From: Glaciozyma antarctica PI12
Lineage: Eukaryota > Basidiomycota > Microbotryomycetes > Kriegeriales > Camptobasidiaceae
Direction: 5' to 3'
DNA: 64,000 nucleotides
NCBI GenBank assembly: GCA_002917775.1
Contig: KZ627151.1
Span: 694,607 to 758,606 of the forward strand
Part shown: one piece after another, positions 2,506-39,133 of the stretch
How positions within the stretch are numbered: the stretch's first letter is position 1
Layout: the number at the start of each line of letters is the position of its first letter
The notes under the pieces: model-generated
The model's input: the letters and a program-made list of their open reading frames with translations, nothing else
Database searches by the model: none
What the model was told of the DNA's origin: nothing
Translations under genes and position numbers: made by a program

Positions 2506-5500
2506 ATGGCACCGACGCCCAGGAGCAGGCTCAAAGCCCTCCCCGACCTCCGTACAGCCCTCACCGCTCTGCGCGGCACCCCCCAACTCACCCCTCTCGC
2601 CACCTCGCTCTCCCCTCTCCTCTCTCCCGTCCGTCCCTTCTCCTCTCCCTCAGCTCCTACTAACACGACTCCACAGACTCGACCGCCTCTCGAATCCTTC
2701 CTCCCGCCCCTTCTTGAGCTCTTCCGCACAGGCCTCCTGGAGGTGTATTACCCACCGGGACCAGTGGCGACTCTCGCGCTCTCTACGGCTGCGGGATTCT
2801 TGCTGCATGTGTTGAATGTCGAGCTCCCGTTGTGCTGGGATATGGAGAGGGAAGAGGGGAGGAGGATGAGGGAGGGGAAGGAGGAGGAGGGGAGAGCGTG
2901 GGAGGAAGCGCTGGGGTCGGTGTTGTTGGGGTTTGAGGTGAGTGCGATTTGAGTGGGGAGAGAGGGAGGAGCTGATGAGCGTAGACGCACTTGAGGACGA
3001 GCGACGAGATTGATCCTGCCACGGAGGGGAGCGTCAAGGACCAGCTCTGTGAGTCGCGTCGCGTCTCTCCGCTCGCAGGAGCTGACGAGGAACAGATCGA
3101 ACGGCGTTTGGGTCGAGCGTCTTTGACTCCCTTATCGCGCTCCTGGCATCGGAGAACGCGTGGCGAATCCCGCCTCGCCACCGCTATGCTGTGCGCTCTT
3201 CCTCCTCTCGACGATGCAGCACCGACTGACAGCTCGGAGCAGGTCCTCGACACGCTTGGAGAAGCGATCGCGAAGCACTCGCCTAACAAGATCCTTCTTC
3301 GCTCTCTCCTCCCTCCGTGCGTTCCTCTCCCTCCTTTGACTCTCGCTCTCGCTCACCGATCGCACAGCTCCCTCCTCGGGTCCCTCATCTCCGACGGTAC
3401 CGGTTCGTCCTCCACAGTCCTTCCGCGTCCAGAACTAACGCACGCAAACAGATCGACTTCTCACCACCTGCGGTTTCGAGCTCGCATACCGCCTCATATC
3501 GGGATCCAAGTCGGAGAAGGCTTCCTGGGCCGCGGAGATCTTTACCGAGGACGTTTTTGGGGAAGACGCGGGGGAGCTGAGGGAGTCGTTCGTCAACCTA
3601 TCGGGATCGGAGTTCTTTCAGGTGCGTCTTGTGGAAAAGGAAGAGGGAGGGAAGCTGACGCTGCGTAGGGCGCGAGGGAGATGCTCGATTCGCTGTCGAG
3701 GAAGAATATCGCGCGGTCCGTACACTCCCTTCCTCTGTCGCACTTTCGCTCACTTCCCTCTGCAGATCTCAAGCCTTTACGACCCCTTTCATCCTGCACA
3801 ACCAAACCAAGCTCTTCCCCGACGAAGCCTCGACGACTCCCTGGTGGATCTGTCGCGACTTCCTCGCCGCGATCGTCGACATCGAGCGTGGCGGAAAGCT
3901 CGTCGAAGCTCGCTTCGTCGTCGACTTCGAGACGGTCCAGCGCGTCGAGGTCGAGGCGCAGCAAGGACGAGGTGAGTCGCTGCCTCCGGACTCCGGACAA
4001 AAGCTGATGTAGGCGCAGACGCGTTGTCAGTCACGTTCTTCCTCTCTGAACCGGCTACGCTCTCAAATGTTCCTATCGACGATCTCCCGGCTGAGATCTA
4101 TCACAAAGTCGTCTTCCGCCCTCCGTTCTCCTCCCTTCCCTCCCTTCACGCCACGCTCGCCGACCGCGCTCTCGTGCGTCTTTTCGCTCTTCAACCCGGC
4201 GCCACTAACCAAATTTCGCACTGCAGAACTACCCCTCTCTCGCCCTCCCCTCTTCGAACCGCAAAGCGTCCGACGCACCTCCCATCAGCGCGTCCTACGT
4301 CCAACGCATCCTCAAGCCCTCCAGCAGCATCCAAGCCTCCGAAAACGAGGAGCAGAGTCTCACTCGAGAGCGAGCGGAGCACCTGGCGAGTATCGCTGAA
4401 GTCGATCGCAGCGATAGCGCGAGCTCGCAGGGAAGCGCGGGGGCGGGCGAAAAGACGCCGGCGGCGGGGCAGGGGAGATTGGAGGTGGATTCGAGGGCTG
4501 GACTCGAGCGACGACCGTCGAATGTCGAGGAGGAGACGCCGAGTCAGTCGCAGAGGGTTGGGAAGGAGGATGGGAACGAGTCGTCGGAGCTTTCGGAGAT
4601 CGAGTCGGACGACGAGGTGGTGGTGCTGAATGGGAGGGCCGAGGGGAGTAAAACGTCGCGCAAGGGATCGGGACCGGCAGCGAAGTCGAGGACGCCATCC
4701 GCCGAACTCGATTCAGACGCCGTATCGATTGAGGAACCAGCGCCGTCACCCGCGTTCGTTCTCGTCTCTCCCGCTGCGAGAGCGAAGGCGCAAGCGAGGA
4801 ACGAGGCGAAGAAGGCGTCTCCACCTCGCAAGGTCGTCGCTTCGCCAGGCTCGCACGCAGGCTCTCAGGGATCCTCCAGCAGTCGCCCTCGTCGAACGAG
4901 CTGGACGCCAAAGAAGCTCGACGAGACGGTCATGGAGATACCCAAGGCCAAGCACGCTCAACCGAAGCAGGTCGTCGCCGAGGTTCCCGCTCCTGGCACG
5001 AAGAAGCCCAAGGACGTTCCGCAGGTCAAGAAGGCTGCCGTCGAGGAGCTCCCGATCCGCACGACTCGCTCCCGCGCCGCCCGCTCCAGTGCCTCGACCG
5101 CCCCCTCTACCGCCACGAAGGCCGCCAAACTTCGCTCGAAACCTCCTCCCAAGCGCCAGCGCGAGCGATCTCCCTCCCCCGATCCACTCTCAGACGCCTC
5201 TCCCGACGCCCTCTCCGAAACCTCTCTCGAACCTGCCGTCCCAGCTCCTCGCGACCAGCCGCCGTACCCCAAGCGTCGCAAGATCACCGACCCAAGCCCG
5301 CTCGACCCGAACGCGACGACCGCGACGACGCTCGTCGAGAGTCAGGCGGAGAGCGAACCTTATACGCTCGTGGCGGTGGTGAAGGAGAAGAAGATGACGA
5401 GGACGTATAGAAAGAAGGTGTCGCCTGTTAAGGAGAGGGAGAGGGTTGGGGAGGATAGTGAGGAAGAGAGGGAGAAGGTCGTTGAGGAGATGGAGGAGTC

Positions 5501-7635
5501 GGAGGAGGAAGAGGAGGCTGTTGTCGTCAAGCCAGAGCCGAAGTCGAAGGCTGTCAGCAAAGCGAAGGGGAAGGGGAAGCAGAAGGACGTCGAGATGGAG
5601 AGCGAGCCAAGTGGGGAGCAGGAGGGACGTCGCCAGACTCGCGGTGCGAAGGCTGCGGCGAAGCGAGCTGCTGGGACCGAGCACCAGACCCAGAGGTACG
5701 TCGACCGTGGCGCTGACAACGTCCTCGCTCGCTGACTTTTCGATTCCACAGTACCTTCTCCGACGTCGTTCTCCCACCTCTTCCTGCCGGCAAGAAGTTC
5801 AGCAAGTCGCTTGCGAACCCGAAGCGGAAGCAGTCGACCGTCCTCGTCGCCGCGACGCCGGACGACCAAGATCCCTCTACCAAGTCTTCGAAATCTCCCT
5901 CGCCGCAGCCTGTCGTCAAGCCTCGCACGACCAAGGCCATCACGTCGTTCTCGCGGTACGTGTGGCTTCTCGTCCCTGCGTTCTCCGTCGCTCATGACTT
6001 CTTCGCAGGCTCGTCCAGTCGCGTCCGGGACCCGCTCCGCGCTCTCCCTCGCCCGAAAGCCGAGCCGGAACATCAGTACCATTCGGAGGAAGAGAACGAC
6101 GACGATTTCTACGACGTCCCCGACGAGCCCATGCCTCCTCCACGCCAGCAGCCGTCCTCGATTGTCGCATCTAGCTCCCGCGCCGCTTCAAATCACATCA
6201 AGAACGTCGGCCTTGTCGTGGATTCCGGAACGGGACCGTCTTTCTCGCCCATGCTCGACCCTGCGGACGACCCGACCTTCGTCGACCGAGCTGTCGAGCA
6301 GGAGCAGATTCTCGCGCAGTTGGAGGAGGAGAAGGCGCTCGCGATCGTTCAGGAGGAGGTGGAGATGGAGCTCGAGGTCGAAGTCGTAGCTGCGACGGTC
6401 GATGCACCAGCTGTCGTCGAGGAGGAGGAGGAGCCCGAGACGATCGACGAGGTCGAAGAGGAGGATCAGGAGATGCAGCCTGTCGGAGCTGAGTCGCTTG
6501 CCGGGCGCAAGGACGGCGTCGCGTACCTCGGAGGCCACCAGATCGGCCCGCTCGCGTCGAGCGACAAAGGTCAGCTCGCTCTCGACACGACTCAGATCAA
6601 GGAGGCTGTTTCGGAGGACGACGCGGACGACGAGCGTGGTGGTCGACTTGGAGAATTCGGAGGGGAGCGAGCGGAGGAGGACGTCGAGATGGAGGACGAC
6701 CAGGTCGAACACGCCTCGGAGGCTACGCAGGTTGGAGACGACTCTGGCTTCTTTCAGTCTGAGCCTTTCCCGCCTCGTCGTCAGAAGCGTGAGTTCTCTC
6801 TCTTCTCATCCTCGTGCAGGATTTTGACTTTTCGCGCATTTCAGATATCGCAACACCTCCTCGGGCCAACTTCCACGTCGCCAAGAAGCCCTCTCCAATC
6901 CGCTCTACTCCCGCCGCGAAAGCTCAATCGCCCATCAAGCCCGTCCCAGCTCGCAAGATCGCTCCACCCCCTCAGCCAGCTCGACCCATCGTCGGCCAGC
7001 GTGATTCGCCCGCCACAAAGCACATCGTTCATCGACCCCCGCACCTCCCTCCTCCAGCAAATAAGGCCGCCGCAGGACCTCTCAAGTTCGTCGCTGTCCC
7101 TATCGCCAAACTCCCAGCCAGGCGCTCCGTCGCCGCTCCTCCCAAAGCCGTCGCAGGGCCCCGCAAATCGGTTGCCGGACTTTCGCACGGCGTTCAGATT
7201 TCGCCGAGGAGGGAGAAGGAGTTGCGAGGGGAGAAGTCGCCGAGGAGGAAGGAGGTGGAGGAGGAGGAAGGGAGCGAGATGGAGCAAGTTCGCTCGACGC
7301 TCGAGGGATTGATCAACGTGCGTTCTTTCCTTCTTCCTCGCGGCACGGTGCTAAAAGGGCATCGCAGGTCATCATAGCTCGTGTGCGCCAGCACAAGACG
7401 CAAGAGCGGGAGCTCTACGAGCGATCCGTCGAGCGACTCAACAAGAAGGCCTCGCGGTTCTTGGAGGAGCTGCACGAGGAGACGTGCGTTCTCGTATTTA
7501 CTGAGTCGAGCGAAGCTGATGAGTGCGAGCAGGGAGGAGATTGTGGTGGGAGCGAGGGAGGGGCTCAAGGAGGCTGAGGAGGGGGCGAAGAAGGTTGGGG
7601 AGATGGTGAGGCGCTTGAAGGAGATGAGGGCGTAG
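2506..7635 (+). CDS. Large SYCP2/Red1-like meiotic chromosome-axis protein (probable)
   Basis: Encodes roughly 1,400 residues over many small introns. The N-terminal third reads as a helical ARM-like domain (VFDSLIALLASENAWRIP, LDTLGEAIAKHS, ELAYRLISGSKSEKASWAAE). A PH/Spt16M-like beta-rich piece follows (TTPWWICRDFLAAIVDIE, VEARFVVDFETVQRVEVEA, ALSVTFFLSEPATL). Domain order and spacing resemble vertebrate SYCP2, where 'ELAYQWFS', a W-x3-DF stretch and the Spt16M-like domain occur in the same order. The middle is a long disordered Lys/Glu/Pro/Ser-rich linker. The last 90 residues form a heptad-like coiled coil (EQVRSTLEGLIN, HKTQERELYERSVERLNKKA, VGEMVRRLKEM) where SYCP2, Red1 and ASY3 carry their filament-forming coiled coil. 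The ATG at 2506 is the first in frame with the conserved part. Identification is by remembered family features, so moderate. A generic chromatin scaffold is the main alternative. Confidence 0.55.
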
Positions 7636-7764: not shown

Positions 7765-8257
7765 TCATCCGATCTTCTGAACAGGCGGAACCCGACTCTC
7801 CCGCCTTTCCGGTACCGAAAACGCGAGGATGAACCAGGCGTGAATTACTGCTCCCCAAGCATAGGTCAGCTCTGCCCTCCTCCCTGGTCTCCCAAAACGC
7901 ACCTGCTGGGAAGAAGCCTAGGAACCCTGCGCACGTCGTCAGCTCCGTTCCACCCCGATAAAAAAGCGAGAGGGCTCACAGAGGACGACGTTGATGAAAA
8001 AGTCGGCTGCGATAGCGAGCGGATCAGTTTCGGTCTCAACCTCGCTAGGAGAGCAGGGACGAACCCTTCAGTCCGCGTACGAGGAAGACGGAGAGAGGAG
8101 GGATGAAGCTGGGTTTTCTTTGATCAGCGTTGTGCAGTGGGAGCGAGAGGCACGGCGGACAAGGAGAAGATCGCGGCGGCCACAAGGCGCTGTGCGAGGG
8201 GTCAGCGGAGGAGCGAGGAAAGCAGGCGGGACGTACGGAGGTGGTGAGACGGGGCAT
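7765..8257 (-). CDS. Pmp3-family small membrane protein, divergent copy
   Basis: Second of two adjacent Pmp3/UPF0057-type genes, both on the minus strand. Splicing several tiny exons gives MPRLTTS, VAAAIFSFFIPPLSVFLVRG, a middle piece DFFINVVLWFLGFFPA and VIHAWFILAFSVPERRESR. These are the two hydrophobic hairpin segments of Pmp3 (family pattern 'LLAIFIPPxxVFxxRG' and 'INxxLxxLGWIPGxxHAWYxI'). Pmp3 proteins sit in the plasma membrane and modulate membrane potential and salt tolerance. Compared with the neighbouring copy, the family's Arg-Gly-Cys turn is Arg-Gly-Leu-Lys here, and the tail is shorter and basic/Pro rather than Gln/Tyr-rich. One donor (GTCCGC) is non-consensus but is needed to keep frame. 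It converges with the upstream axis-like gene, whose stop lies 130 bp away. Confidence 0.7.
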
Positions 8258-8725
8258 GGCTGGATTGGTGGTTCGGTGTTGATGAGAGAGAGGGAGAGGA
8301 GAGAGTCCGAGTCGTGACTGAGGCGACTCCGGTCCCGAAGAGTTCATCTCCTCTGAGTCTTGCGAGCGGCTGGTTTCGATTCGAGAAAGCGCTTCAAGTT
8401 GAGAGCAGCATACCTAAGAGCAGAATAATAACGAACCTCGAAGCGGCAGCAAAGGTGGAGCGAGGAGCTTCAAGATTAAACGGGAGGACACTCGCCACGT
8501 CGGGCGATGATAACTGAACGCACTGCTGCACTGAAGGTAGAGCGCTAGAGCGAGAAAGCTACACGCAGAGGAAGCGCGAACAGTTAAGAAGCAGCAAAGT
8601 ATTGCCGCACAGAGCATTCAGCACGCACACTCAGAGCAGGCGACTCCGCCTTGCCGCCTTGCCCAACTCAAGAATTACTGACTCCCGCCCATGCTACACC
8701 ATCCCTCTCACAACGCCTTCCCTCC
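8258..8725. other. Intergenic between tandem Pmp3 genes
   Basis: Holds the promoter and leader of the downstream Pmp3 copy and the 3' end of the upstream copy. I see no third gene and no clear repeat. Confidence 0.5.
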
Positions 8726-26076: not shown

Positions 26077-28413
26077 CTATAGATAATAAACAAACGTCGA
26101 GGAGTCATTTCCCATCGACGAATCTCCCGCGACGCCCGCCGCAATGTTCGCTCGGCGGACAACGTTGATCCTCTTGAGCGCGTACACCTGGAGCGAGCCT
26201 CATCAGCAAGGTCTCTTCGAGAATAGCGAAAAAAAGCGTACATGGTTGACCGTGATCACCATGGACAGCACCGTCATCCCCACCGACACCCAGAGTCCCT
26301 TCGTGTACCTTGGAGCGGTGTCGGCGGAGTAAATGTAGCCGATCGCAGCCCCCGCGCAGTCTAACCAACAGAAATCAGCGCCGTTCATAATCTGTGCAAA
26401 AGTGAACTCACTTCCAACGAGCTGCATCAGTCCCGTCGCCGTTGCGCGTCGGAAGTGGCCTGCGTTGTTGTTGTTCGTCCAAGTTACGTTGAGAGCTGCT
26501 CCAGCGTACCTATAAGATCGCAGTGAGCTAACAAAAAAGAAAGAAAAGAAAGCGAGGCTCACAAAGCGCTGCCAACTACGAAGACGCCGAAGAAGCGAAC
26601 GGGAGGCGACTTTACGGTTGCAAGGATGATGTACCCTACGAGGATGTGATCAGCTTTACGTAGCGAGGGGGTGAAGGAGAGAGTTAAGAGACGCACCGAT
26701 AATGGCGATGACCGAGTAGACGAGCATGGGAACTGAGCGGCATTGGTACTTGTCGCTCATGCGAGCTCCACTGAAATCGAGCGTCAGTGCCGGCAACGTC
26801 TCTGCGAGGGGAAAGACGAACAAGAGGAAAGAGGCAGCTGCGACAAAGTACACTGGGGCCGGTATCAGCAAAGTAAAAGATTCGAAGGCGACTGAACTTA
26901 CCAGGTACAGTAAGGAGCTGTGCGTAAACCGGGTTCTTCGTGAGCTGGAGTCCTCGAATGATGATCGGCATGAACGTCGAGAGTCCATAAAGTGTAACGT
27001 CGACGCAGAACTGGTTCGCAGCGCTGTGAATCGACGAGAGTTAGTGAAGTAACGAGAGAGCTGAAGGAGAACAACGCACTGACTCCACGTCTTCCAATCG
27101 CTCGCCGCCAACCGAACCTCGCGCCACGAGAACTTCTCGCTAGGATCAAACTGCTCCTTGTTAATCTCGTACCGAACCGCACACAGTTCCCGCTCGCGCT
27201 TGTTGAGGAACCAGGCCTGCAAGATCTCGGGGGTCAGCGAAGGTTGAAGAGGGAACAACGAGACGAACCTCGGTGAGAAGGTTGGGAATGACGAGGTACG
27301 CGACGGGCACAAACGCAATAGTGATGACTCCCTCGATAAGGTACAGCCCTGTGAGTGAGAGAGAGGTCAGCTGCTGGTATCAAGGAGATTTCGCATCGCA
27401 TGGCTGACTCTGAGGAAGAGGACTCACATTGCCATCCTACAAGCGAGCCAGCGTTGATCTGAGTCAGGCCATAGGCCAGAAGTCCACCGATGGCTCCAGA
27501 GAGTGCGGCGCAGGCGAAAATGTAGGAGAGCCGAGTAGCGAGTTCCTCTCGTCGGTAGGACACTGCTCAGGATGTCAGCCTCGATCTTACACCTTGGAGA
27601 GAAACGACGTACTGGCGAGGTACAAGTTGACGCAGGGAAAGAGTCTGAAAACTTTCGTCAGCTTCGTGCGGAAAGGAAGAAAACGAGAACTGTCGTGGTC
27701 CGCGGACCGAACGTTCCTCGCGCTTTCTCGACACAAAGTCGGTCTACCCCGTCGCAGATCAACTCCCTCGCAGATCAGATCAACTCCCTCGCAGATCTAC
27801 TCCCTCGCAGACCTACTCCCTCGCAGATACAAGAAAAAAAACTCACCCAGCTTCAAAGATGCCCAAAATCACCCTCGCCGTGATCAGGTGTTCATACGTT
27901 TTCACAAAGGCGGTGCCGAGCGTGATGACCCCCCAAGCGGCGGTCGTGAGCGAGAGGAGCAGCTTTGGAGTGACAATCTTGAGGAGGTTGGCCCAGATCG
28001 GCTCAAAGGCGACGTAGGTGGCGTAGACGATGGAGACCCTGCGAGAACGCAGTTAGCAGCGTACCGCAGACGAACAAAGGAGAAAAAAACACGTACGCGG
28101 TGCCGAACTGGTTGCCTGTGAGTCCCAGGTCCTCCGAAAGACCAGCGACGTTGGCGTTGCCGATGTTGGCACGATCGAGGAATGCGAGTAGGTACAAGGC
28201 TCCCATGATGGAGATGATGTTTCGATCGAGCTGAATGAGAGAGTCAGCGTGCTGTCACTGAGACCGCCCTAAAAGAAGAGGAAGCCTCACCTTCCTCAAG
28301 AGACGTTTCTCCTCCGCTGGCTCGATGAAGAGAGTATCCGGCGCAGTGTCGGCCTCCTTCGAGTTGATCTCGACATCCATATCCTTCTCGCTAAGTGCCA
28401 CTTCTTTGCTCAT
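26077..28413 (-). CDS. MFS permease of the anion:cation symporter (Dal5/Tna1) family
   Basis: Plasma-membrane transporter of about 490 residues in more than ten exons. It starts MSKEVALSEKDMDVEINSKE. The family signature at helix 1 is clear: EEKRLLRKLDRNIISIMGAL, then YLLAFLDRANIGNANVAGL. Further segments: TPKLLLSLTTAAWGVITLG, LITARVILGIFEA, RLSYIFACAALSGAIGGLLA, GLYLIEGVITIAFVPVAYLV, LYGLSTFMPIIIRGLQLT, VYFVAAASFLLFVFPLAETL, VPMLVYSVIAIIG, GLWVSVGMTVLSMVITVNHV. The central loop (LLTEAWFLNKRERELC) matches the 'FLTxxExxxxxxR' loop of allantoate, nicotinate and pantothenate permeases. It lies next to genes for oxoproline-type metabolism and is probably their uptake transporter (inference). One intron (27645-27846) is long and filled with a tandem repeat. 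The substrate cannot be read from sequence. Confidence 0.87.
27697..27708. promoter_or_regulatory. 12-bp palindrome GGTCCGCGGACC
   Basis: Perfect palindrome with a CCGCGG core inside the same permease intron as the minisatellite. CGG/CCG palindromes are typical Zn2Cys6 binding sites, and a Zn2Cys6 regulator gene lies 8 kb away. The same core occurs twice upstream of the permease. Function is inference. Confidence 0.3.
27743..27832. repeat. Minisatellite inside a permease-gene intron
   Basis: About five imperfect copies of a 16-21 bp unit with core CTCCCTCGCAGATC, read on the plus strand. The whole array lies inside the 202-nt intron 27645-27846 of the permease gene. Copies differ in an inserted AGATCA and in single bases, which suggests slippage-type expansion. 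Confidence 0.85.
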
Positions 28414-28910
28414 CTAGTGAACACAGCCCAACAGGTAAGCGCAGGCGAAAAAACGGTTACGTGGCCGACGCACGATGAGTTCTCCCTTTGGCGGCACTGT
28501 GAACGGTATCGTCGAGGAGATAGAGCAGAGAGAGCGGGGGACTCTTGACGAGCGGGGGAGCAGGGAACCCACTCTCGATAAGAGCCGGGTTCCCCTCGGG
28601 CCAAGTTTGGCGTGAGAGACTGCCTGGCGTGCTAGCCGGCCTGCCGCTCCGTCTAGCTCGCGGAGGTGTTCACTGTTCCGCTGACTCCCCTGCTGGGCGG
28701 GAGTTCAAAGGAGAGGAGGAGGAAGGGGAAGAGGTGAACCGAATCTCGAAAGGTCAGCCGAAGTTCCTGACGCCCGGACCCTCCGCTTGCACCCTCTCCG
28801 CGGACCGCTGCACCGTGACACTCTCCGCGGAATGTTGAACGTCCAGCGGTCAACACACACTGACTCCCAAGCGAACGAAAGCTGGAGAGTAAGACAAGAA
28901 ATTCCAGAAA
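28414..28910 (-). promoter_or_regulatory. Permease promoter and HyuB 3' region
   Basis: Between the permease start and the HyuB-type gene stop, both on the minus strand. It contains two identical 11-bp boxes CTCTCCGCGGA (28794-28804 and 28821-28831) with palindromic CCGCGG cores 27 bp apart, and a further GGCGGGAG box near 28700. These are candidate sites for the cluster's Zn2Cys6 regulator, judged from motif type only. Confidence 0.4.
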
Positions 28911-31233
28911 CTAAACACCCAACTGCATCGCCGACCTCTCCTCCAAACTCCCCCTCGCCGCAAACGTCTGCTCGGCCGCGAACGCGCTCTTCCCTCTCTT
29001 CTTCGCACCCTTCTCTCCCCATCCACCACCTCCCGGCGTCAGGATACGAATACGATCCCCAGCTCCCATGCGACAAGTTGCGCGCCCTCCAATCGAGATG
29101 ATCCTGCGCACGAGATCGTCAGCGAAGGAGCGAGGAGAGTGAGGAGAAACGCACCGAGCCTTTTCGTTCTCGCTGCGCCAGTCGCCGTCCGCTTTGCGAG
29201 TCTTCTTGACCCAGAGGTTGAGTCCAGTCTTGGCTGGCTCGCCTCCAGCAAGGCCGTAAGGTCGGTGAACACGACGCTGCGAAGCTCGATTAGCTTAATC
29301 GTCGTCGGAGAGGGAAGACGGACTCACCTCGCTGAGAATGCTCGCTTGGATCTCTTGAAGGAACTCGATGTCGCGAACGACGCCGTCCCCGCCTTTGTAA
29401 AGTCCGTCTCCACCAGAGCCTTCGCGGAGGGAGAACTCATGAAGGAGGACGGGGTAGCGACGCTCAAAGATCTCGACGTCCGTCATGCGCGTGTTGGTCA
29501 TGCTGCGACGCGCGAAGAGTTAGCCATGGCCTTGAGAGGAAGAAGGAAGCTAAAGACGCACTGGGTGTGGACGCCACTCTCTCCATCCCACCCCTCGCCA
29601 GCTCCAGCTCCTCCCGCAATTGTCTCGTAGTAACCCCAGCCTTCCTCGAACCCGCCAGACTCGGTCTTCCCGCCCGTTCCGAACGTAAAATTGTTGCAGT
29701 CACCTTGCGAAGCCGCACACGCTGAGAAGGCGCGCAGAACGACGTCGGTGATGCGTTGCGAGGTGACGACGTTTCTGCGCGAAGGAGATCTCGTTAGCGA
29801 GAGACGAGGGGAGTTTCGAAATCATGGACGAACCCGCCGACGACTGCACACGTGTCTGAGGGATCCAGTAGCGAGTTCTCAGGGATGATTACTGTAAATG
29901 AGAGTGATTCAGTCGACTTGATCACGAAAAGCGATAACGCAAAGAGGAACGTACGGGTGATGGGAGCGAGACAGCCAGCGTTGAGCGGAATGTCCTCGTT
30001 GACCATCGCGCGAAGGCAGTAAATGACAGCGGAGTAGACCTGCACGCTCATGATCAGCGCAATACTCCGAGGGCGAAGAGATGGACGCACGACGGAGATG
30101 GGAGCGTTCAGATTGCCACGCATCTCGGGACCAGTTCCCTCGAAGTCGAACGCCGCGTTCCCGTTGACGCCGTCGATCGTGACCGTGAGCTCGATGGGCG
30201 TCCCGTCGTCCATGTAGTCGATCGCGTGAAGAACTCCACCGGAGGAAGCGTGGCGAGCGGCGACGGTGCGAAGGAGGTTGCGAACAGCGAACTCGGCATT
30301 GTCGCGAATGTAGCCCATGTACTGCTGCACGACCGGAAGCGTGTATTCCTCGATGACTGCGAGCAGAACGTCAGATAGGTCCCTTAAGACGACGAGGGAC
30401 GCGCTTACGACCATGGATGAGCTGAATGCCTTTCCGGTTTGAAGCAATCTGGGCGGTGAGGTCGCTCTCGACGTCGCGAAGGCAGCGAGTCCCGCTCGAT
30501 CCTTCGTAAGATGCGGGTTCGTCGACCATGCGGTAGAGAAGGCCTGCTCGGTCGTATTTGCCCTTGCGAACGATCTTGAACGAGGTCACAGCAGCTCCCT
30601 CTTCGTAGATCGTGGTCGAAGTAGGAGGCATCGAGCCAGGAAGAATACCGCCGACGTCTTGTGGGAGGCAAGATCAGGAACGTTCGAGGTGGGGAGATGG
30701 AAGAGGTAGAGCGTACCTGCGTGATGACCTCGCGATGCGACAAAGAAGATGGGCTTCTTCGAGAGAGGGTCGAAGACGGGCGTAATGATGGTGCTGAAGT
30801 GAGAGTCAGCTTTACTTCGAGCTCGGGAGGTGTTGTAAGGGAACTCACATATCGGGAAGATGACTACCTCCGGCCTTGGGAGCGTTGGTCAAAATAACGT
30901 CCCCATCTTCGATGCCGTCGCCAGAGGGAGCGTCAGGTCCGAAACCGAGGCTCTGGATCTGGTATTTGACGGCACTGTCGGAGAGTCGGCGTCAGCTCCA
31001 CCTCCGAAGCCGGAAAGGAGGACTCACAAGCTCATGGAGCCGAGGTGTACTGGAAGGTGCGGCGCGTTGGCGATGAGGTCGCCGTCCGGTGCGAAGAGCG
31101 CGCAGGAGAAGTCAAGGCGCTCCTTAATGTTCGTAGAAACACTGGTTTTTTGGAGGGAGGCGCCCATGGCTTCCGCGATAGCCATGAATCGATTCCCGAA
31201 GAGGCTGAGGCGTACAGGATCGGGTCCAGTCAT
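28911..31233 (-). CDS. HyuB-type subunit of 5-oxoprolinase/hydantoinase
   Basis: Matches the C-terminal (HyuB) half of eukaryotic ATP-dependent 5-oxoprolinase and bacterial N-methylhydantoinase B. Blocks in order: [261 protein letters not shown]. About ten small introns. The start is the ATG at 31233, at the usual HyuB N-terminus. It hydrolyses the ring opened by the HyuA partner, which is encoded divergently next door. In fungi and animals both halves are normally one polypeptide, so the split is unusual. Confidence 0.9.
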
Positions 31234-31678
31234 CTTGAAGGAGGGGGCAGCTGCGAGGAGTTTCCGGTCAGCGCCACGCCCACAAAACCCGAACTTAACA
31301 GCGTACGGGACGACTTGAATGAACAAGAGCAGTGCGGAGGAGATGAAGCTTCGAGCGCCGAAGTATCGCCCGGATTGGCAGGCGGGGGAGGCGGAAGATT
31401 TAAGGAGGGGGTCCTTGGCACTCGGCTACGACGGACAGCAAGATAAGGCCCATCCTGGGGGGAGGGGAGGAGAGGGAGAAGAGCCCCGCGAGAAACCCGC
31501 TTCCGGCGGGAGCCTGAGGAAGGTAGATGACCGCTCTTTTGAGTCCGCCACTATCGCCCAAGGCAGGCTCGAGCGTTAGACAAAGATGCAGGGTGCCTCT
31601 GTTTGCTGCTCTTACACCACCCACACCCGCCGATTGTACTGGGGGTTTGATTAAGTTCCAGTGCTCCGCCGCCCTACA
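31234..31678. promoter_or_regulatory. Bidirectional promoter between HyuB and HyuA genes
   Basis: 445 bp separate the two divergent start codons. The HyuB side appears to contain a leader intron (about 31251-31306 on the minus strand) whose ends match an intron of the DUF1445 gene. An inverted repeat CCCGC-TTCCG-GCGGG lies near 31496-31510, and further CGG triplets are scattered. A shared control region would keep the two subunits in step. Confidence 0.5.
31239..31311 (-). repeat. Intron-plus-flanks copy shared with the DUF1445 gene
   Basis: 31239-31275 matches 35571-35607 at 35 of 37 positions, and 31300-31311 matches 35629-35640 at 12 of 12. The 24 and 21 bases between the two blocks differ. 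In both places the blocks cover a donor (GTCCC/GTACGCT) and an acceptor (CTCGCAG/CTGCCCCCTCCT) on the minus strand. Here the copy lies in the leader just upstream of the HyuB ATG. Confidence 0.75.
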
Positions 31679-34600
31679 ATGCCTGCCCTGCTCCTCCCCG
31701 CTTTCCCTGTCCCTGATCACTGTAGGTTTGGACGCTGCTTACGCTCCTCTCACGCCAGCTGACGCCCTTGACAGCCATACGGGTCTCTGTGGACAGAGGA
31801 GGAACCTTCTCCGATGTGCACGCTTCGTGGCCGACTCCTGAAGGACCTCGAAAGGAGCTCGTCGTCAAGCTGCTCAGTGTAGACCTTAACAACTACCCCG
31901 ACGCGCCAACGGAGGGCATCCGACGAGTCTTGGAGATTGCGACCGGCGAGACCATCCCTCGCGGAGTTCGCCTCGACACGACCAAGATTGAGTACATTCG
32001 GTGCGTGTTGCGGTCGTGAAGCATGCGGGGACCTAGCTAATTGGAACTTCCGCAGGCTGTCGACTACCGTCGCTACAAACTGCCTGCTCGAGCGGAAGGG
32101 AGCCGAGCACGCTTTCGTCGTTACCAAGGGCTTCAAGGTCCGTCTTTTGACCTCCTTCCACCGCTGGCGGGAGCTAACTCATTCGTGTAGGACCTCCTGC
32201 GCATCTCGAACCAGTCCCGACCTTCCATCTTCGCCCTCAACGTCCAGCGGCCCAAGGTCCTGTTCAACTCCGTTCTCGAGGTGGACGAGCGAGTCACCCT
32301 TTGTGGCTTTACCTCTGATCCCAAATTCGCCAAGAACGGAGTCAAGTTCAACGCCGAAGGCGGGGTTGAATCTGGACACGAGGGAGAGATTGTACGAGGG
32401 ATCTCGGGCGAGGCAGTCAAGATTCTCAAGAAGCCAGGCCAGTCGCTGGGTACCTCAGCCTCGTTGTGATTCACGCTAATATATTTACGTAGATCCTATT
32501 CAAGTCCGTGCCGACCTCCAAGCGCTCTACGACGGAGGAATTCGCGTCCTCGCAATCTGCTTCGTTCACTCCTACACCTTCCCAGGTACGTTTCTCACCT
32601 TGCGATGCTCTCACTTTCCTAACCTTCGTTCTCTACAGCTCATGAGCTTCTTGTTGCCGAGATCGCCGAATCCATCGGCTTCACGCACGTCTCGGTCTCG
32701 TCCGTCGTAAGTCTCCATCTCTCGATCATCTGCTCCTCATTATCTGATCCCTTCGCAGCTCTCTCCTCAAATCAAGATGGTTCCCCGCGCCACCTCCTCC
32801 ACCGCCGACGCCTACCTCACTCCCGTGCTGAAGGAATACCTCGCCTCGTTCTTCAAAGGATTCGACAGCAAGCTCTCGGGCGGAAGCTCACGCGGTGGCG
32901 CACGAGTCGAGTTCATGACGTCCGAAGGCAGTCTTGTCGAGGTCGACAAGTTCTCGGGACTCAAGTCGCTTCTCAGCGGACCGGCGGGCGGAGTCGTTGC
33001 GTACAGCTTGACTTCGTGGGATGAGAAAGTCAAGACTCCCGTCATTGGCTTCGACATGGTGAGTTCTTCTTCGCCTTGTTCGCTACCTGCGTTCGTTGCT
33101 CATTTATCTCGCTTCCAGGGAGGAACTTCGACCGATGTTTCGAGGTTCGATGGTCGCTTCGAGACGGTTTACGAGACGACGACGGCGGGGATCGCAATTC
33201 AAAGGTTACCTCTCGCGCGCCTGCCACCACGAAAAACCTGCTGACTCCCTCGTCCTCTGCAGCCCTCAACTCGACATCAACACCGTCGCAACACCGTAGG
33301 AGCAATCCTGCTTGACGTTTAGGAACGGGCTCTTCCTCGTTGGACCCGAGTCCGCCGGAGCAGAGCCAGGACCTGGTGAGTGCCTTCTCGACGAGACCTG
33401 CTGCGAACGATAGACTAATGGCGTGCTCGCTAGCCTGTTACCGCAAGGGAGGACCTCTCGCTACCACCGACGCGAACCTCCTTCTCGGTCGTCTTCTCCC
33501 CGACTACTTCCCCAAGGTAAGCTCGACTTGGCGAGCCAACATCCTTGTCACTGACTCCCGAATTGCGCAGATCTTTGGCGCTACCGAGGACCAGCCCCTC
33601 GACATCGAAGCCTCGCGCAAGTCGTTCGAGCTCCTCCGCGTCGAGATCAACGAGTACATCAGGAACCATGGCGCGGATGGTGCGAAGCCTTTTACTCTCG
33701 ACGAGGTCGCGTTCGGCTTCATCAAGATTGCGAACGAGACGATGGCGTGCGTTCCTCCTCACTCGTTCACTCGTTCCTCACAATTAACTGACAAGCTTCC
33801 TTCGTGCAGTCGACCCATTCGCGCGCTCACCGAGGCTCGAGGCTTCTCAACTGCGAAGCATGTGCTCGCCTGTGCGTTCTTCCATCTTTATTCTGGTCCC
33901 CAGGCAGCTGACGAGATTTCGCAGCTTTCGGAGGCGCTGGAGGCCAGCATGCTTGCGAGATGGCTCGTTCGCTTGGGATCACCAAGATTTTAATCCACCG
34001 CTTTTCGAGCATCTTGAGCGCGTACGGCATGTCGCTGGCGGATCGGTGAGTTCTCCTTCTCTTTCCGAAGCCCGTCCCTGACCCCATTCCTCGCAGGGCA
34101 CACGAGCTTCAAGAGCCTTGCAGCGAGAAGTACTGCGACGAGACGAAGTCGTACTTTGTCCAACGCATCGAGCGCCTCAGGACCAAGGTCGTTGCGGAGC
34201 TCAAGCGTCAAGGTTTTGCGAGCGACCGTATCGTGACCGAATGCTTCCTCAACCTCCGGTACGTCCTCTCTCCGTCTTCCATCGACTCAAGCTAACCACT
34301 CCTCACAGCTACGACGGCTCCGACACCTCCCTCATGACCCTCGCACCCCTCGACGGCTCCTTTGACTTCCAAACCGCCTTCGAGGACGCCTACCGCAACG
34401 AATTCGGCTTCCTAATCGAGGACAAGCACGTCATGGTCGACGACGTGCGGGTTCGCGGGATCGGCAAGACGTTCGATACGCTCGGTGAATCCGTCTTTGC
34501 GGAATCGGCGAGGCTGTCGTTCGTTCCTGTCGGGTTGGAGGGGGGGAAGAAGGAGGGGATGGCGAGCATGTATTTCGACAAGACGGGGAGGGTGGAGGTG

Positions 34601-34744
34601 CCGGTTTTCTTGTTGGAGAAGCTGGACACGGGGGATCTTGTCCGGGGTCCTGCGGCGATCGTAGATGGGACTCAGACGCTCATCTTGGACCCAGGGTCGG
34701 AGAGCAGGATTTGCTCGAAGCATGTATACGTTACTTTGCATTGA
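31679..34744 (+). CDS. HyuA-type subunit of 5-oxoprolinase/hydantoinase
   Basis: Matches the N-terminal (HyuA) half of ATP-dependent 5-oxoprolinase. A short first exon [15 protein letters not shown] joins, through a typical intron, to [20 protein letters not shown], the family's actin-like phosphate-binding start. Further blocks: [108 protein letters not shown]-like ATP site near 33115, [36 protein letters not shown], a late HyuA_C-type region ([34 protein letters not shown]) and an end [18 protein letters not shown]. About 720 residues, ending where HyuB would begin in the fused enzyme. It uses ATP to activate ring opening of 5-oxoproline or a hydantoin. Divergent from its HyuB partner. Confidence 0.9.
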
Positions 34745-34906
34745 AGGCTTGGTTTGTAGCTTTCATCAAGCTTGGGTTTGCGAGAGCGAGCGAGCGAGGA
34801 CTTTGCGGATTTTGCGAAGATAGGGAATCGCAAGTCGTACAAATTCACAAATTCACATTTGCTATCTTCTCACGAGTCGAGGGCGCGCACAGGATGTACG
34901 CCCGAA

Positions 34907-35905
34907 TTACTTGCAAACTTCGGAATCCAGCATGTCGAGCACGAGCATATGCCCCGGCGCGTGCCCAACCACAACTCCCTCTATCCCACTATGCATAACT
35001 GCCAGCTGAGGCGTCACTCCACAGCCCCAGAACACCGCCACCTCTCCTTCCCTAACCTCGCTCGCGTCCCCGAAATCCGGCACATCGACATCGGCGATAC
35101 CGAGTGTGCGGGCGCCTTCAGGACCCCATGTGACGGGTTCTCCGTGCGCGAGGGTGAAGGGCCGAGAGAGGGAGCGGACGAGGGGGAGGGAGGAGAGAGG
35201 GTAGGGTCGCATCGAAACGACCATGTGGCCGGAGAAGACTGCGAAGCGAAGTCAGTTGCGAAGAATGAAAGTAGGGAGGAACTCACCTCCCGCTGCGCAC
35301 AGAGGAACCTTTGTCTTGTACATCGGCACGTTGCGATCTAGCTCCGTGTGGCGAGGAACCAGGCCATTGGCGACGAGTGAGGCCTCGAAAGAGTATGAGC
35401 AGCCGATGAAGAAGGCGACGCTGTCGCTTTGCCACTCCTCCTCGATGCTCTGCTTCGTCTCGATCAGCACGCCGTCTTGATAGACGGTGTACTTCGGACA
35501 GTCGCTGCGGATATCGGAGGAAGTGGCGAGGTGGAGAGGGACGCGATAGTCTCCAGGGAGGGTTTCGCCGAGGAGGGGGCAGCTGCGAGGAGTTGCCGGT
35601 TAGCGCCGCACAAAGAAGCGGACTGGAGAGCGTACGGGACTGGGTTTCGAGAGCAGAGAAGACGGAAGTCGGCTGCGTAGCGTTCGGGGAGGATGATTCT
35701 GCGGAGAGCAAGCGTCAGGCGGCGTTTAGGACCAGGAGAGCTGGCGCTTAGCGTACACGTTCGCCTGTACATGTCCGGCCTATCAATAATCGACCCTGTC
35801 AGTCCGTAGTGCGTGCCAAGGAGGTGAAGGACGCACGCAAAGCCCAGCAGTACCCGTGGAAAACGAGCCATTGCGACAGATAGCACGCAGTTCCGAGGGA
35901 GTCAT
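34907..35905 (-). CDS. DUF1445 protein (YcsI / D-glutamate cyclase-like putative hydro-lyase)
   Basis: Spliced protein of about 265 residues: MTPSELRAICRNGSFSTGTA, GHVQANVIILPERYAADF, RLLCSRNPVPCPLLGETLPG, DYRVPLHLATSSDIRSDCPK, YTVYQDGVLIETKQSIEEEW, VAFFIGCSYSFEASLVANGL, ELDRNVPMYKTKVPL, FSGHMVVSMRPYPLSSLPLV, WGPEGARTLGIADVDVPDFG, VAVFWGCGVTPQLAVMHS and VGHAPGHMLVLDM. These are the DUF1445 (PF07286) hallmarks: 'VQANLviLPreyA.DFl.fc.rNP.pCPll', 'FliGCSfsFE', 'VFWaCGVTPQ' and 'tHaPGhMfi'. The human member DGLUCY turns D-glutamate into 5-oxo-D-proline. The Bacillus member YcsI sits in the 5-oxoprolinase operon. Next to HyuA and HyuB genes, an oxoproline/D-glutamate role is likely but inferred. 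One intron shares both splice-site flanks with the HyuB leader. Confidence 0.88.
35571..35640 (-). repeat. Second copy of the shared intron-plus-flanks segment
   Basis: Partner of 31239-31311. Here the donor flank and acceptor flank are coding (they encode NPVP and CPLLGE of the DUF1445 protein), so this copy is probably the original. Confidence 0.75.
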
Positions 35906-36127
35906 TTCGCGAGCAGCAAGAGGGCGGGGTTCAATCTTTCTCGAAGTTAGTGGGTGGGGAGAGGCAACCCGCCCAAGTCCCTAATCTTTCTTACTCGGAT
36001 TTTGGTCGGAGCGCGGAGAGACTACCGCGCGGAGACGGACCGCCGCAGACCTTCGTTATCGTTTTGTGGGGGGAACCAGTCACCCCGTCACCAGCACGAC
36101 ACCCTGAGAGTATCAGGAGCCAGTCAA
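35906..36127. promoter_or_regulatory. Bidirectional promoter between DUF1445 and regulator genes
   Basis: 222 bp between two divergent start codons. It carries an interrupted CCGCGCGG and CGGACCGCCG motifs (36025-36045), which fit Zn2Cys6-type sites and could allow autoregulation. Inferred from motif and position. Confidence 0.4.
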
Positions 36128-39100
36128 ATGTCCCTTACCAACGCTGTAGCCGGGGGCTCGAACGCCTCAGGAGCTGGAGAGCCTCGAGCCACGAAGCGGA
36201 AGCTCTCTCATGTGTGAGAAACGCCGCTGCCATCCAGGAAGGTAGCCCTGAGGAAGCTAACTGTGCTCTTGCAGGTCGCGCGCGTGCAACAGCTGTCGGA
36301 GGAGGTGAGGAAGAGCGGGGCGGCGCCAAAACGTCCTCAGCTGACGCTCAACACGACGCAGGAAAGCAAAGTGCAGCGGCGATGTTCCTAGCTGTCAGAA
36401 CTGCTTGCTCTCTCACGAGGACTGCAGTTACAGTGGCGAGCACGACGGACGCAAGCCCGCCTCGAAGCAGTACCTTCAGGCGCTTCAAGCTCGCGTCAAA
36501 GCTCTCGAGGCGCTTCTCGACGGCGAGGCGATCTCTCACGCTGGGATAGAGACGGTGGAGGATGTTACTATGAGCGGGGGAGCTAGGAAGGGCAAGGGAA
36601 AAGCGGGAGAGGCAGGCGAGACGAGCGAGTCGGGAGGTACGGATGGGGAGGCGCTACCGGAGGATCTGGAACGGCTCAAGGTACGTACGGCCGAGGCAGC
36701 GTAGATGGAAATGTGCTGATAGACGCATCTTGCTAGCTTGACGACGAGACTGGCGAGTTCAGGCAATACGGCCCAACGAGCGCGTTCTCCCTCGTCCCTC
36801 CGCAGCTCGCGACCTCCACCTCTCCTCCCCACGCCGCCGCCTCCCCAGCCTCGCTCTCCTCCACCTCGTACTATTTCCTCGAAGGACGCGACGCAGCTTT
36901 CCTATCGTCCAACTCGCCAGATTTCTTTGGGGCCGCCAACGTCGACGGAGAGAGCTCGCACGTCGAGGTCGGGTGGTCCAAGAACCTCCCTTCGTTTCCA
37001 GGTTTCGATGAAGGACTCCATACCGACCTCCTCGCGTTGTTCTTTGGCTACTTTTGCTCGTGTGTTCTTTCGCCGCTTACCGTCTCTCGCGATTCTCACC
37101 TCTCACTCCCTCCACAGATGGTGCCGATGGACGAACGAAGACCTCTTTCGTCGCGATATGGCGCTCTGCCTATCTCCTCCGACGCTTCTCAACCCCACCC
37201 CTCCGAATCGTACCTCGTATTACAGCACTCTCCTCCACAACGCCCTCCTCTCCCTCGCCGTCTCCTACTCCGACGACCCTCGACTCATCGAATCAGACGC
37301 CGGGCTCAAGTTCGCTGCACTAGCGAAGGAGGCGATCGAGGATGAGGCGGAGCGACCGATGTTGAGTACGGTACAAGGGCTTATGCTGCTCGGGAGCTAT
37401 CACAGCGGGAACGCAAGGCACGGGCTCGGGTGGTGCGTTCCCTCCATCGCGTCTCGTTGAAGGTTCGCTCATGATCTCGTGGTAGGGTATACGCTGGGAT
37501 GGGGTTGAGGATGAGCACGACGCTGGGACTCGGAATCGATTGCTCGGCGTGGGTTCGACAAGGACTCGTCACGGAGGCGGTCAAGAACGAGCGAGATCAG
37601 ACTGCGTACCTTTGTTACGTTCAAGACAAGTGCGTCTCTTTCGCTTTCCCTAACGCGCCGTCTAACCTCGCTCCTCTTTCCAGGCTCTGGAGCCTCTACG
37701 TCGGCCGCGCTGCTACGCTCACCGCCTCGACCTTCGAAACCCCTCTTCCCCAGGCCAACCCCGCTCTCGATGCTGCGACCTGGTCTCCCGTCACCATCAG
37801 CGCTCCTCAAGACGATTCGGGCTTCCAAGGAGACTTTGACTTCGAGTTCGGGGGCGCAGAGGCGGTTGCCGGAGTTCCGAGCTGGGCTTCTACGACGTTC
37901 CTCTGGACTTGCAAGCTGGCCAAGCTGGCGGAACGAGTGATGGAAGCTCTGTGAGTGGTTTCTGGCGAGGAGATGAGGACCGAAAGCTGACGTTCGCCAC
38001 AGGTACGGCTTGAAGCCTCAGATTCACTCTTCGCGAGTGCAGAACCTCGTATCGCAATTGCAGTACGTATTTCACCGCTTCGATGCCGAGCTATGCTGAT
38101 CTCGTTGTGGTGCAGCCTCGAGCTCGAGAAGTGGCACTCCGAACTGCCTCCTCAGCTCCACATCGCGCCGCACGCGAAAGGCTCGCTCCCAAGCCACATC
38201 CTCATGCTCCACTTCATGTTCTGGTTCCTCCTCATCCTACTTTATCGGCCGTTCTACTCTCGACAACGCAACCGCTCAAACGCTGCCTTCAACGAGCTCG
38301 CCGCCGTCAAGGTCTGCGACAAAGCTGCCTCCAAGATCGTTCTTCTCCTCGAGGTTCGTCTCGATTCTCCGCATCCCGCCCTCATCCTTTCTAACGTTTG
38401 CTTCCTTTCCAGTTATACCGACAATCTCCAGGACTTCGCTACGCCCCCATTTCTCTCATTCAGATCACCTTCACCGCCGGGACGATCCACCTCCTCACCG
38501 CCGCCAAATCTGAAGCCCCTCGCGCGCCCAAACGAATCGCTACGGCACTCGAAGCCGCCCAAACGTGCGTCATCAGCCTCGAGGAGATTGGAAAGTCGTG
38601 GAAAGGCGCGACGCAGAGCGCGGCGATCCTTAGCAGGCTCATCGTCGAGTGGTGCCCGAGAAAGCCTGAGCCGGTGGAGGTTGGGCCGGTTGCGCAACAT
38701 GCGCTTGACCCACATTCGGACCTGGCGAAGCAGCTCCTCGCGCTCGGGTGGACGCCCCCGACGCAGACCCCCGTCGCTCCGCAAGTCCCAACGTCGCAGA
38801 GCTTTTCTCCCGTGCGTCTTCCTCCGCTTACCCCTACCACGACGCTGACTACCCGCTCAATAGACTCTCAGCAACGTCTACTCCCCGCACCTCCCCGCCC
38901 TCAACCGACCTCCCTACCCTCCCTTCCACCAACCCCCTCCCGTCCCCCTCGCTTTCGCTCCCCCCTTCTTCTCCGAACCCGATTTCGAGTTCAGCGACGA
39001 AAGTATGCTGGCCTTGTTCCAGGGAACGACGTGGGTGGGCACGGGGCTGCCGGTCACGCCGGGGTGGGGAGGGGGGCCGGAGGGGGAGGAGATTGATGCG

Positions 39101-39133
39101 CAGTGGTTGCATGGGCTTGAGAGGACGCTGTAG
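36128..39133 (+). CDS. Zn2Cys6 fungal transcription factor
   Basis: Nuclear regulator of about 800 residues. A basic start (EPRATKRKLSHV) runs into the zinc cluster, assembled from three exons: RACNSCRRRKAKCSGDVPSC, QNCLLSHEDCSY. All six cysteines are present with canonical spacing (C-x2-C-x6-C-x6-C-x2-C-x6-C). A short coiled coil follows (QALQARVKALEALL), then an acidic Gly-rich linker. The middle carries the fungal-specific regulatory domain (DMALCLSPPTLLN, LLHNALLSLAVSYSDDPRLI, MLSTVQGLMLLGSYHSGNAR, GLRMSTTLGLGIDCSAW, ILMLHFMFWFLLILLYRPFY, ALEAAQTCVISLEEIGKSW). The C-terminus is Pro-rich with an acidic, aromatic end (FEFSDESMLALFQGTTW) that could activate transcription. The first donor is GTGAGA after CATGT; only this keeps the zinc cluster in frame. 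It is adjacent to and divergent from the DUF1445 gene, so it probably controls the oxoproline-type cluster (inference). Confidence 0.9.

Follow-up and report, generated by a model that had tools for sequence, protein, structure and literature searches.

Positions 26077 to 39133 of the window, by which we mean the entire 64,000-nucleotide stretch of contig KZ627151.1 of Glaciozyma antarctica PI12 that was analyzed, hold five adjacent genes that on balance probably form a fungal catabolic gene cluster for the use of 5-oxoproline (pyroglutamate). Gene models, built by GT-AG intron splicing by hand and by script, together with Pfam matches, identify a major facilitator superfamily (MFS) permease (26077..28413, minus strand; 14 exons, 486 amino acids, GT-AG introns and one terminal stop), HyuB, the B half of an OPLAH-type 5-oxoprolinase (28911..31233, minus strand; 11 exons, 589 amino acids), HyuA, the A half of the same type of enzyme (31679..34744, plus strand; 15 exons, 769 codons), a stand-alone DUF1445 protein (PF07286, D-Glu_cyclase, E 2.9e-55; 34907..35905, minus strand; 5 exons, 260 amino acids) and a Zn2Cys6 regulator with Zn_clus and Fungal_trans domains (36128..39133, plus strand; 10 exons, 834 amino acids by arithmetic). 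An earlier, sequence-only reading of this DNA had placed the same five genes in this interval, and all five were found with the coordinates right. The permease, HyuB, DUF1445 and regulator genes (four of the five) are intact single open frames; HyuA is broken as assembled by an in-frame TAG at 33297-33299.

We infer the substrate, transport, regulation and DUF1445 role of the cluster as follows, with 5-oxoproline as the best-supported candidate substrate. The permease, putatively of the Dal5 type, would import 5-oxoproline, and the Zn2Cys6 regulator would turn the cluster genes on. HyuA and HyuB would open the 5-oxoproline ring to L-glutamate at the expense of ATP, HyuA phosphorylating and HyuB hydrolyzing at its metal site. 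The substrate of DUF1445 would be 5-oxoproline or the compound just before it, and the protein would most likely convert the D form (or D-glutamate) into a substrate for the L-specific oxoprolinase. DUF1445 is a widespread family for which, to our knowledge, no settled function has been found. The cluster offers candidates both for that function and for the yeast 5-oxoproline transporter, which has been described as unknown (PMC13398684).

The A and B domain set of the OPLAH-type family is complete: HyuA carries Hydant_A_N (PF05378, E 1.4e-47), Hydantoinase_A (PF01968, E 4.9e-89, with X at the stop) and Hydant_A_C, and HyuB carries Hydantoinase_B (PF02538, E 1.8e-205). In a comparison with 120 listed HyuA homologues out of 7995 scored proteins, the phosphate-site aspartates D21 (119 of 120, with one gap) and D356 (120 of 120) are both present in the window HyuA, as is the GxxPGP adenosine motif, which reads GAEPGP. 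The HyuB metal ligands D41, H107, D110 and H134 align with D41, H99, D102 and H124 of CapB, the roles of whose metal-site residues are described in PMC8453981. CapAB, the caprolactamase of Pseudomonas jessenii, is likewise a two-chain ATP-dependent lactamase with the same metal and phosphate sites (PMC8453981), but its substrate is caprolactam and it is distant in sequence (6yra: B, E 1.4e-30; A, E 9.6e-35). According to the same source, the A and B halves of oxoprolinase lie on one chain in Saccharomyces cerevisiae and mammals (PMC8453981); the window HyuA and HyuB are separate chains. The best 120 of the 7995 scored HyuA homologues are 696-795 residues long, the A half alone, which indicates that the split is ordinary in the closest relatives, in a search whose length limit of 1.75 times the query left room for fused forms, although such forms would score lower in the ranking. 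Among the matches listed, the closest relatives of both halves are Meredithblackwellia and Leucosporidium, and the named members among the closest HyuA relatives are, as we recognize them, basidiomycetes.

The partners of DUF1445 in bacteria bear directly on the substrate. We assembled 28 distinct bacterial DUF1445 loci, after dropping the duplicates L030 and L031: two came from a pattern scan, 11 from the 11 genomes that matched out of 119 in the phylum to which Saccharopolyspora belongs, and 15 from plasmid records picked for variety from 60 listed of 238. Partner genes were sought by tblastn at E 1e-8 within a stretch of about 15 kb per locus. Data showed that 14 of the 28 loci match PxpA, PxpB or PxpC and that 10 match HyuA and HyuB. 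PxpABC and HyuA/HyuB belong to different families and have 5-oxoproline as a common substrate. The pairing of DUF1445 with two unrelated 5-oxoprolinases thus favors 5-oxoproline over hydantoin, and it makes a stronger case of guilt by association than one pairing alone would.

If HyuA and HyuB were instead an ATP-dependent hydantoinase, the cluster would break down hydantoins or N-methylhydantoin; both proteins are also annotated in hydantoin and N-methylhydantoin systems, and the best solved-structure match (7hk5) is named N-methylhydantoinase. We consider this very unlikely. The 7hk5 match reflects merely which structures exist, the closest named relatives among the matches listed are fungal and many are called 5-oxoprolinase in their source, and DUF1445 accompanies PxpABC parts in half of the bacterial loci. 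The five gene models include neither a carbamoylase nor a hydantoin racemase; no search for these two was made elsewhere in the genome.

Four of the ten HyuA/HyuB loci are from Actinomycetota and carry HyuA and HyuB next to DUF1445, each half in a frame of its own. Another five come from Burkholderiales (four of them close kin) and have both halves in one frame, annotated in two as a single gene; their A part is 36-38% and their B part 43-45% identical to the window halves. The remaining locus, L018, is weak, with HyuA and HyuB matches of 25-26% identity about 2.7 kb from DUF1445. DUF1445 and HyuA are separated at two loci, L024 and L028, by the gene of an NRAMP-like transporter with 26% identity to the query. 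Transporters of this kind have been implicated in 5-oxoproline uptake (PMC13274462), although the NRAMP-like member of Bacillus subtilis is described elsewhere as a manganese importer (PMC10448178). At another locus, L026, the DUF1445 gene occupies 7818-8567, and neither kind of oxoprolinase was matched within its 16-kb stretch.

In a DUF1445 tree of 21 of the 28 bacterial loci, 45 of 120 listed proteins and the window protein, the bacteria with a HyuA/HyuB link are dispersed over several positions and none groups with the fungi, several of the branches being weak. This pattern fits repeated assembly or swapping better than single inheritance. The sequence-only reading had suggested that a eukaryotic cluster with a different type of oxoprolinase would point to two origins of the functional link. 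That view needs amending, since the HyuA/HyuB-DUF1445 link also occurs in Actinomycetota and Burkholderiales and is not specific to eukaryotes; either the association arose on more than two occasions or the enzyme was swapped.

The cluster is new in detail, not in kind. Two Paraburkholderia loci (L032 and L041) carry a LysR regulator, DUF1445, an MFS transporter and a fused OPLAH-type oxoprolinase, so that the same four functions are adjacent, and their DUF1445 proteins are 49% and 47% identical to the window protein. Their regulator is of the LysR and not the Zn2Cys6 type, and their DUF1445 does not group with the fungi in the tree. Two further bacterial systems, pxp (kip) in B. subtilis and pxpTABC in Corynebacterium glutamicum, likewise combine an oxoprolinase with an importer and a regulator, but their PxpABC are of other families than HyuA/HyuB and their importer is NRAMP-like and not MFS. 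The B. subtilis operon includes the DUF1445 gene ycsI (PMC10448178), as the sequence-only reading had stated. Use of 5-oxoproline by C. glutamicum pxpTABC is reported as genetically proven (PMC13274462), and that operon, as named there, lacks DUF1445. Queries with PxpA, PxpB and PxpC of Bacillus badius, run against the window only, gave nothing at E 1e-3.

What DUF1445 contributes can be approached through mouse DGLUCY, which consists of DUF1445 and DUF4392 and has D-glutamate cyclase activity; according to the authors of that work, the part that resembles racemases is DUF4392 (PMC5339696). The sequence-only reading had named DGLUCY, which makes 5-oxo-D-proline from D-glutamate, as a member of DUF1445; as a pointer to D-glutamate cyclization by the window protein this is weak. 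DUF4392 is absent from the 260-residue window protein by Pfam, and a profile search with PF14336 across the genome (20.0 Mb, 18 contigs) gave no match, with both added positive controls detected and 14 control genomes silent, although an intron-split DUF4392 gene could escape such a search. The family name given by Pfam and the activity of the mouse protein (PMC5339696) would make DUF1445 itself a D-glutamate cyclase and the cluster a route for degrading D-glutamate, and in one bacterial operon DUF1445 and PxpA occur together with a D-amino-acid aminotransferase and a protein with a glutamate cyclase domain. We find this reading doubtful, since it is DUF4392 that has the racemase-like homology, since the mouse work as described does not separate out what DUF1445 contributes (PMC5339696), and since no DUF4392 is detectable by profile in the genome. 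Among the 28 bacterial loci, DUF4392 queries (E 1e-8) matched only their source loci, L035 and L036, which is a weak test.

The DUF1445 sequence itself shows signs of an internal repeat. We compared 27,260, 25,424 and 23,652 segment pairs at 14, 18 and 22 residues, and at each length the top pair superposes Cys113 on Cys223, with z of 5.4-5.6 measured against the other, unshuffled pairs; for 14-residue segments the strongest unrelated pair comes close, with z 5.0. The two cysteines are kept in 66 of 67 and 67 of 67 DUF1445 sequences, respectively (46 fungal and 21 bacterial), and in the model each stands at a strand end before a helix (121 and 233 in Leucosporidium numbering). Pseudo-symmetric cysteine pairs are a mark of cofactor-free racemases. 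We know of no 5-oxoproline racemase activity for DUF1445, and it is only tentatively, with more doubt than confidence, that we propose DUF1445 as a two-cysteine, cofactor-free racemase converting 5-oxo-D-proline to 5-oxo-L-proline. Such a role would explain both of its partners, PxpABC and the OPLAH-type enzyme. The product reported for mouse DGLUCY is 5-oxo-D-proline (PMC5339696), which argues against fast racemization by the mouse protein. If the proposal is true, the racemase would be the missing step for salvage of D-glutamate, via its lactam, by any L-specific 5-oxoprolinase, and each group, fungi as well as bacteria, would have put it beside the oxoprolinase it already had.

The data from other fungi support continued linkage of the enzyme genes elsewhere in Pucciniomycotina. 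Gene order was approximated by the locus tags that the source names contain, each name standing for a 90% cluster, and the strains are related, so that the counts are not independent; the evidence covers HyuA, HyuB and DUF1445. Cluster-type HyuA lies within five locus tags of DUF1445 in 9 of the 12 strains with tags for both (HyuA/DUF1445 tags: JCM10207, 5745/5744; VNI00, 5374/5376; JCM5296, 4579/4584; JCM11491, 1874/1879; NBRC10512, 6494/6498; JCM8097, 8446/8442; JCM9279, 6466/6470; JCM8115, 6599/6603; Rhopal, 6302/6298). A 13th strain, V5O48 (Marasmius crinis-equi, 12625/10128), was excluded from this count, its listed HyuA being among ordinary Agaricomycete halves; its cluster-type HyuB (10127) adjoins DUF1445 (10128). 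All six strains in which both listed halves are of the cluster type have HyuA and HyuB on consecutive tags (JCM10207, VNI00, JCM10213, JCM10449v2, JCM3775 and JCM10212). These six remain from eight strains with tags for both halves, after exclusion of JCM5296, for which the HyuB listed belongs to the second type, and of V5O48. Among genomes without tags, Leucosporidium has HyuA, HyuB and DUF1445 apparently on one contig, and Moniliophthora roreri MCA 2997 has HyuA and DUF1445 apparently on one contig. The catabolic cluster proposed in the sequence-only reading thus stands as regards the kept linkage of HyuA, HyuB and DUF1445; scattered homologues in relatives, which that reading had named as the result that would count against it, were seen in 3 of the 12 strains only.

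Several observations weigh against a catabolic 5-oxoproline cluster of this make-up. DUF1445 lies away from HyuA in those three strains (JCM10212, 6403/5160; JCM3766R1, 6429/5794; JCM10213, 1859/2694), and in Meredithblackwellia the two are on different contigs. Four of the 28 bacterial loci (L026, L035, L039 and L044) have neither kind of oxoprolinase in their stretch of about 15 kb, and at E 1e-8 nothing in the Burkholderiales clusters matches the permease, the MFS transporters of the Paraburkholderia clusters included. Finally, the HyuA of the cluster is interrupted as assembled. The lesion, in exon 9 (33278..33310, plus strand), combines the in-frame TAG, which is the sole stop inside the 769-codon frame, with loss of the GGG motif: all 120 listed homologues read [AG]GGGS where the window reads A-T-P-stop-E-Q-S, and the listed HyuA of Rhodotorula toruloides, for one, runs through this motif without a break. 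A 9-bp direct repeat, with copies at 33278 and 33289 (offset 11), spans the lesion, so that one local duplication may explain much of the change. A splice-site scan found no intron of ordinary length able to remove it.

Outside the lesion HyuA is open and conserved, which points to a recent event or an assembly error. Among the listed homologues, 245 alignment columns show the same residue in 119 or all of the 120 sequences, and the window protein deviates at six of these, four of them in the lesion; in the tree its branch length of 0.161 does not exceed the 0.233 of Meredithblackwellia or the 0.202 of Leucosporidium. The TAG may therefore be an artifact of assembly, in which case this strain would have a fully working cluster; we take this possibility seriously while leaning away from it, as the 9-bp repeat resembles a genuine local duplication. 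A second A half lies on contig C3 (L015, about 2695-5710), where it ends at a stop and, in a partial model, keeps the [AG]GGGS motif; a second B half lies on contig C4 (L016, about 4700-7010). The only DUF1445 match found in the genome is the window copy, so neither second half adjoins a DUF1445 gene. With its HyuA interrupted at the GGG loop, the cluster in this strain has probably been recently inactivated, or relies on the C3 HyuA, or is misassembled at this point. The lesion must be settled before claims are made on the cluster of this strain.

The permease matches MFS_1 (E 5.2e-39, with a model seven residues short at the C terminus), and its nearest named family is 2.A.1.14 of the Transporter Classification (TC), of the anion:cation symporter type, to which we take Dal5 to belong. 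Its best NCBIfam match, 2A0114, reaches E 1.9e-53 and 181.9 bits, the curated cut-off being 395. The regulator matches Zn_clus (E 2.3e-8) and Fungal_trans (E 1.5e-17) in a draft with one wrong residue. Several near-copies of a TCTGCGAGGGAGTAGA-like unit of 16-17 bp were seen by eye in permease intron 3 (27645-27846, 202 nt).

In Schizosaccharomyces pombe, SPAC11D3.15, which we take to be an oxoprolinase gene, the transporter gene SPAC11D3.18c and the DUF1445 gene SPAC5H10.01 are presumably neighbors, going by their cosmid names. All three are reported in a set of nine genes repressed specifically by copper (PMC1929147), and SPAC5H10.01 and SPAC11D3.18c fall in vegetative cells with klf1 deleted (PMC3805531). 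The transporter and DUF1445 genes thus share responses, but the regulator published for them is the C2H2 protein Klf1 and not a Zn2Cys6 protein (PMC3805531). SPAC11D3.14c is named as a 5-oxoprolinase (PMC12610034), and a 5-oxoprolinase protein of Rhodotorula toruloides is reported to rise with rapamycin in rich medium (PMC11982011). These expression data concern the genes of other organisms, not this cluster.

OPLAH-type enzymes have an established housekeeping role in the glutathione cycle, and the fungal linkage counts rest on HyuA, HyuB and DUF1445, without the permease or regulator. Both facts would suit a set of genes that recycles internal 5-oxoproline from glutathione turnover, with the permease and regulator as incidental neighbors. 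We think this unlikely: the second A half on C3 and the second B half on C4 could cover housekeeping, the two annotated Burkholderiales clusters also carry an MFS transporter and a regulator, and the S. pombe transporter and DUF1445 genes respond together.

Trees of HyuA and HyuB (FastTree; 39 of 120 listed homologues each) place the cluster-type halves in a clade with support of 1.0 for HyuA and 0.967 for HyuB, apart from the second pair and from the Agaricomycete halves. In a joint tree of both halves (19 rows, with rows and groups chosen after the first trees), Moniliophthora and Paramarasmius join the Microbotryomycetes cluster clade (98/99). By the approximately unbiased test (p-AU), a constraint joining these two with four Agaricomycetes was rejected (p-AU 1e-7), and a constraint uniting the ten Microbotryomycetes rows fell just short of rejection (p-AU 0.0504). 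This topology and these tests make it likely that the cluster A and B halves passed between fungi by transfer; alternatively, the halves shared by Marasmiaceae and Microbotryomycetes may be an old paralogue followed by many losses. The DUF1445 tree leaves the Marasmiaceae placement undecided.

Gene pieces on either side of the cluster match TFIIF_beta (left) and FA_desaturase (right), marking a TFIIF-beta gene and a fatty-acid desaturase gene as its flanks. By the gene models, two divergent pairs share intergenic regions: 445 bp (31234..31678) between HyuB on the minus and HyuA on the plus strand, and 222 bp (35906..36127) between DUF1445 on the minus and the regulator on the plus strand. Directly upstream of the HyuB start lies a 73-bp block (31239..31311, minus strand) that is 82% identical to 35571-35640, which is DUF1445 intron 3 with its exon edges. 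Searches of the genome and of the window found these two copies only, both in the cluster, so that the intron seems to have been copied inside the cluster.

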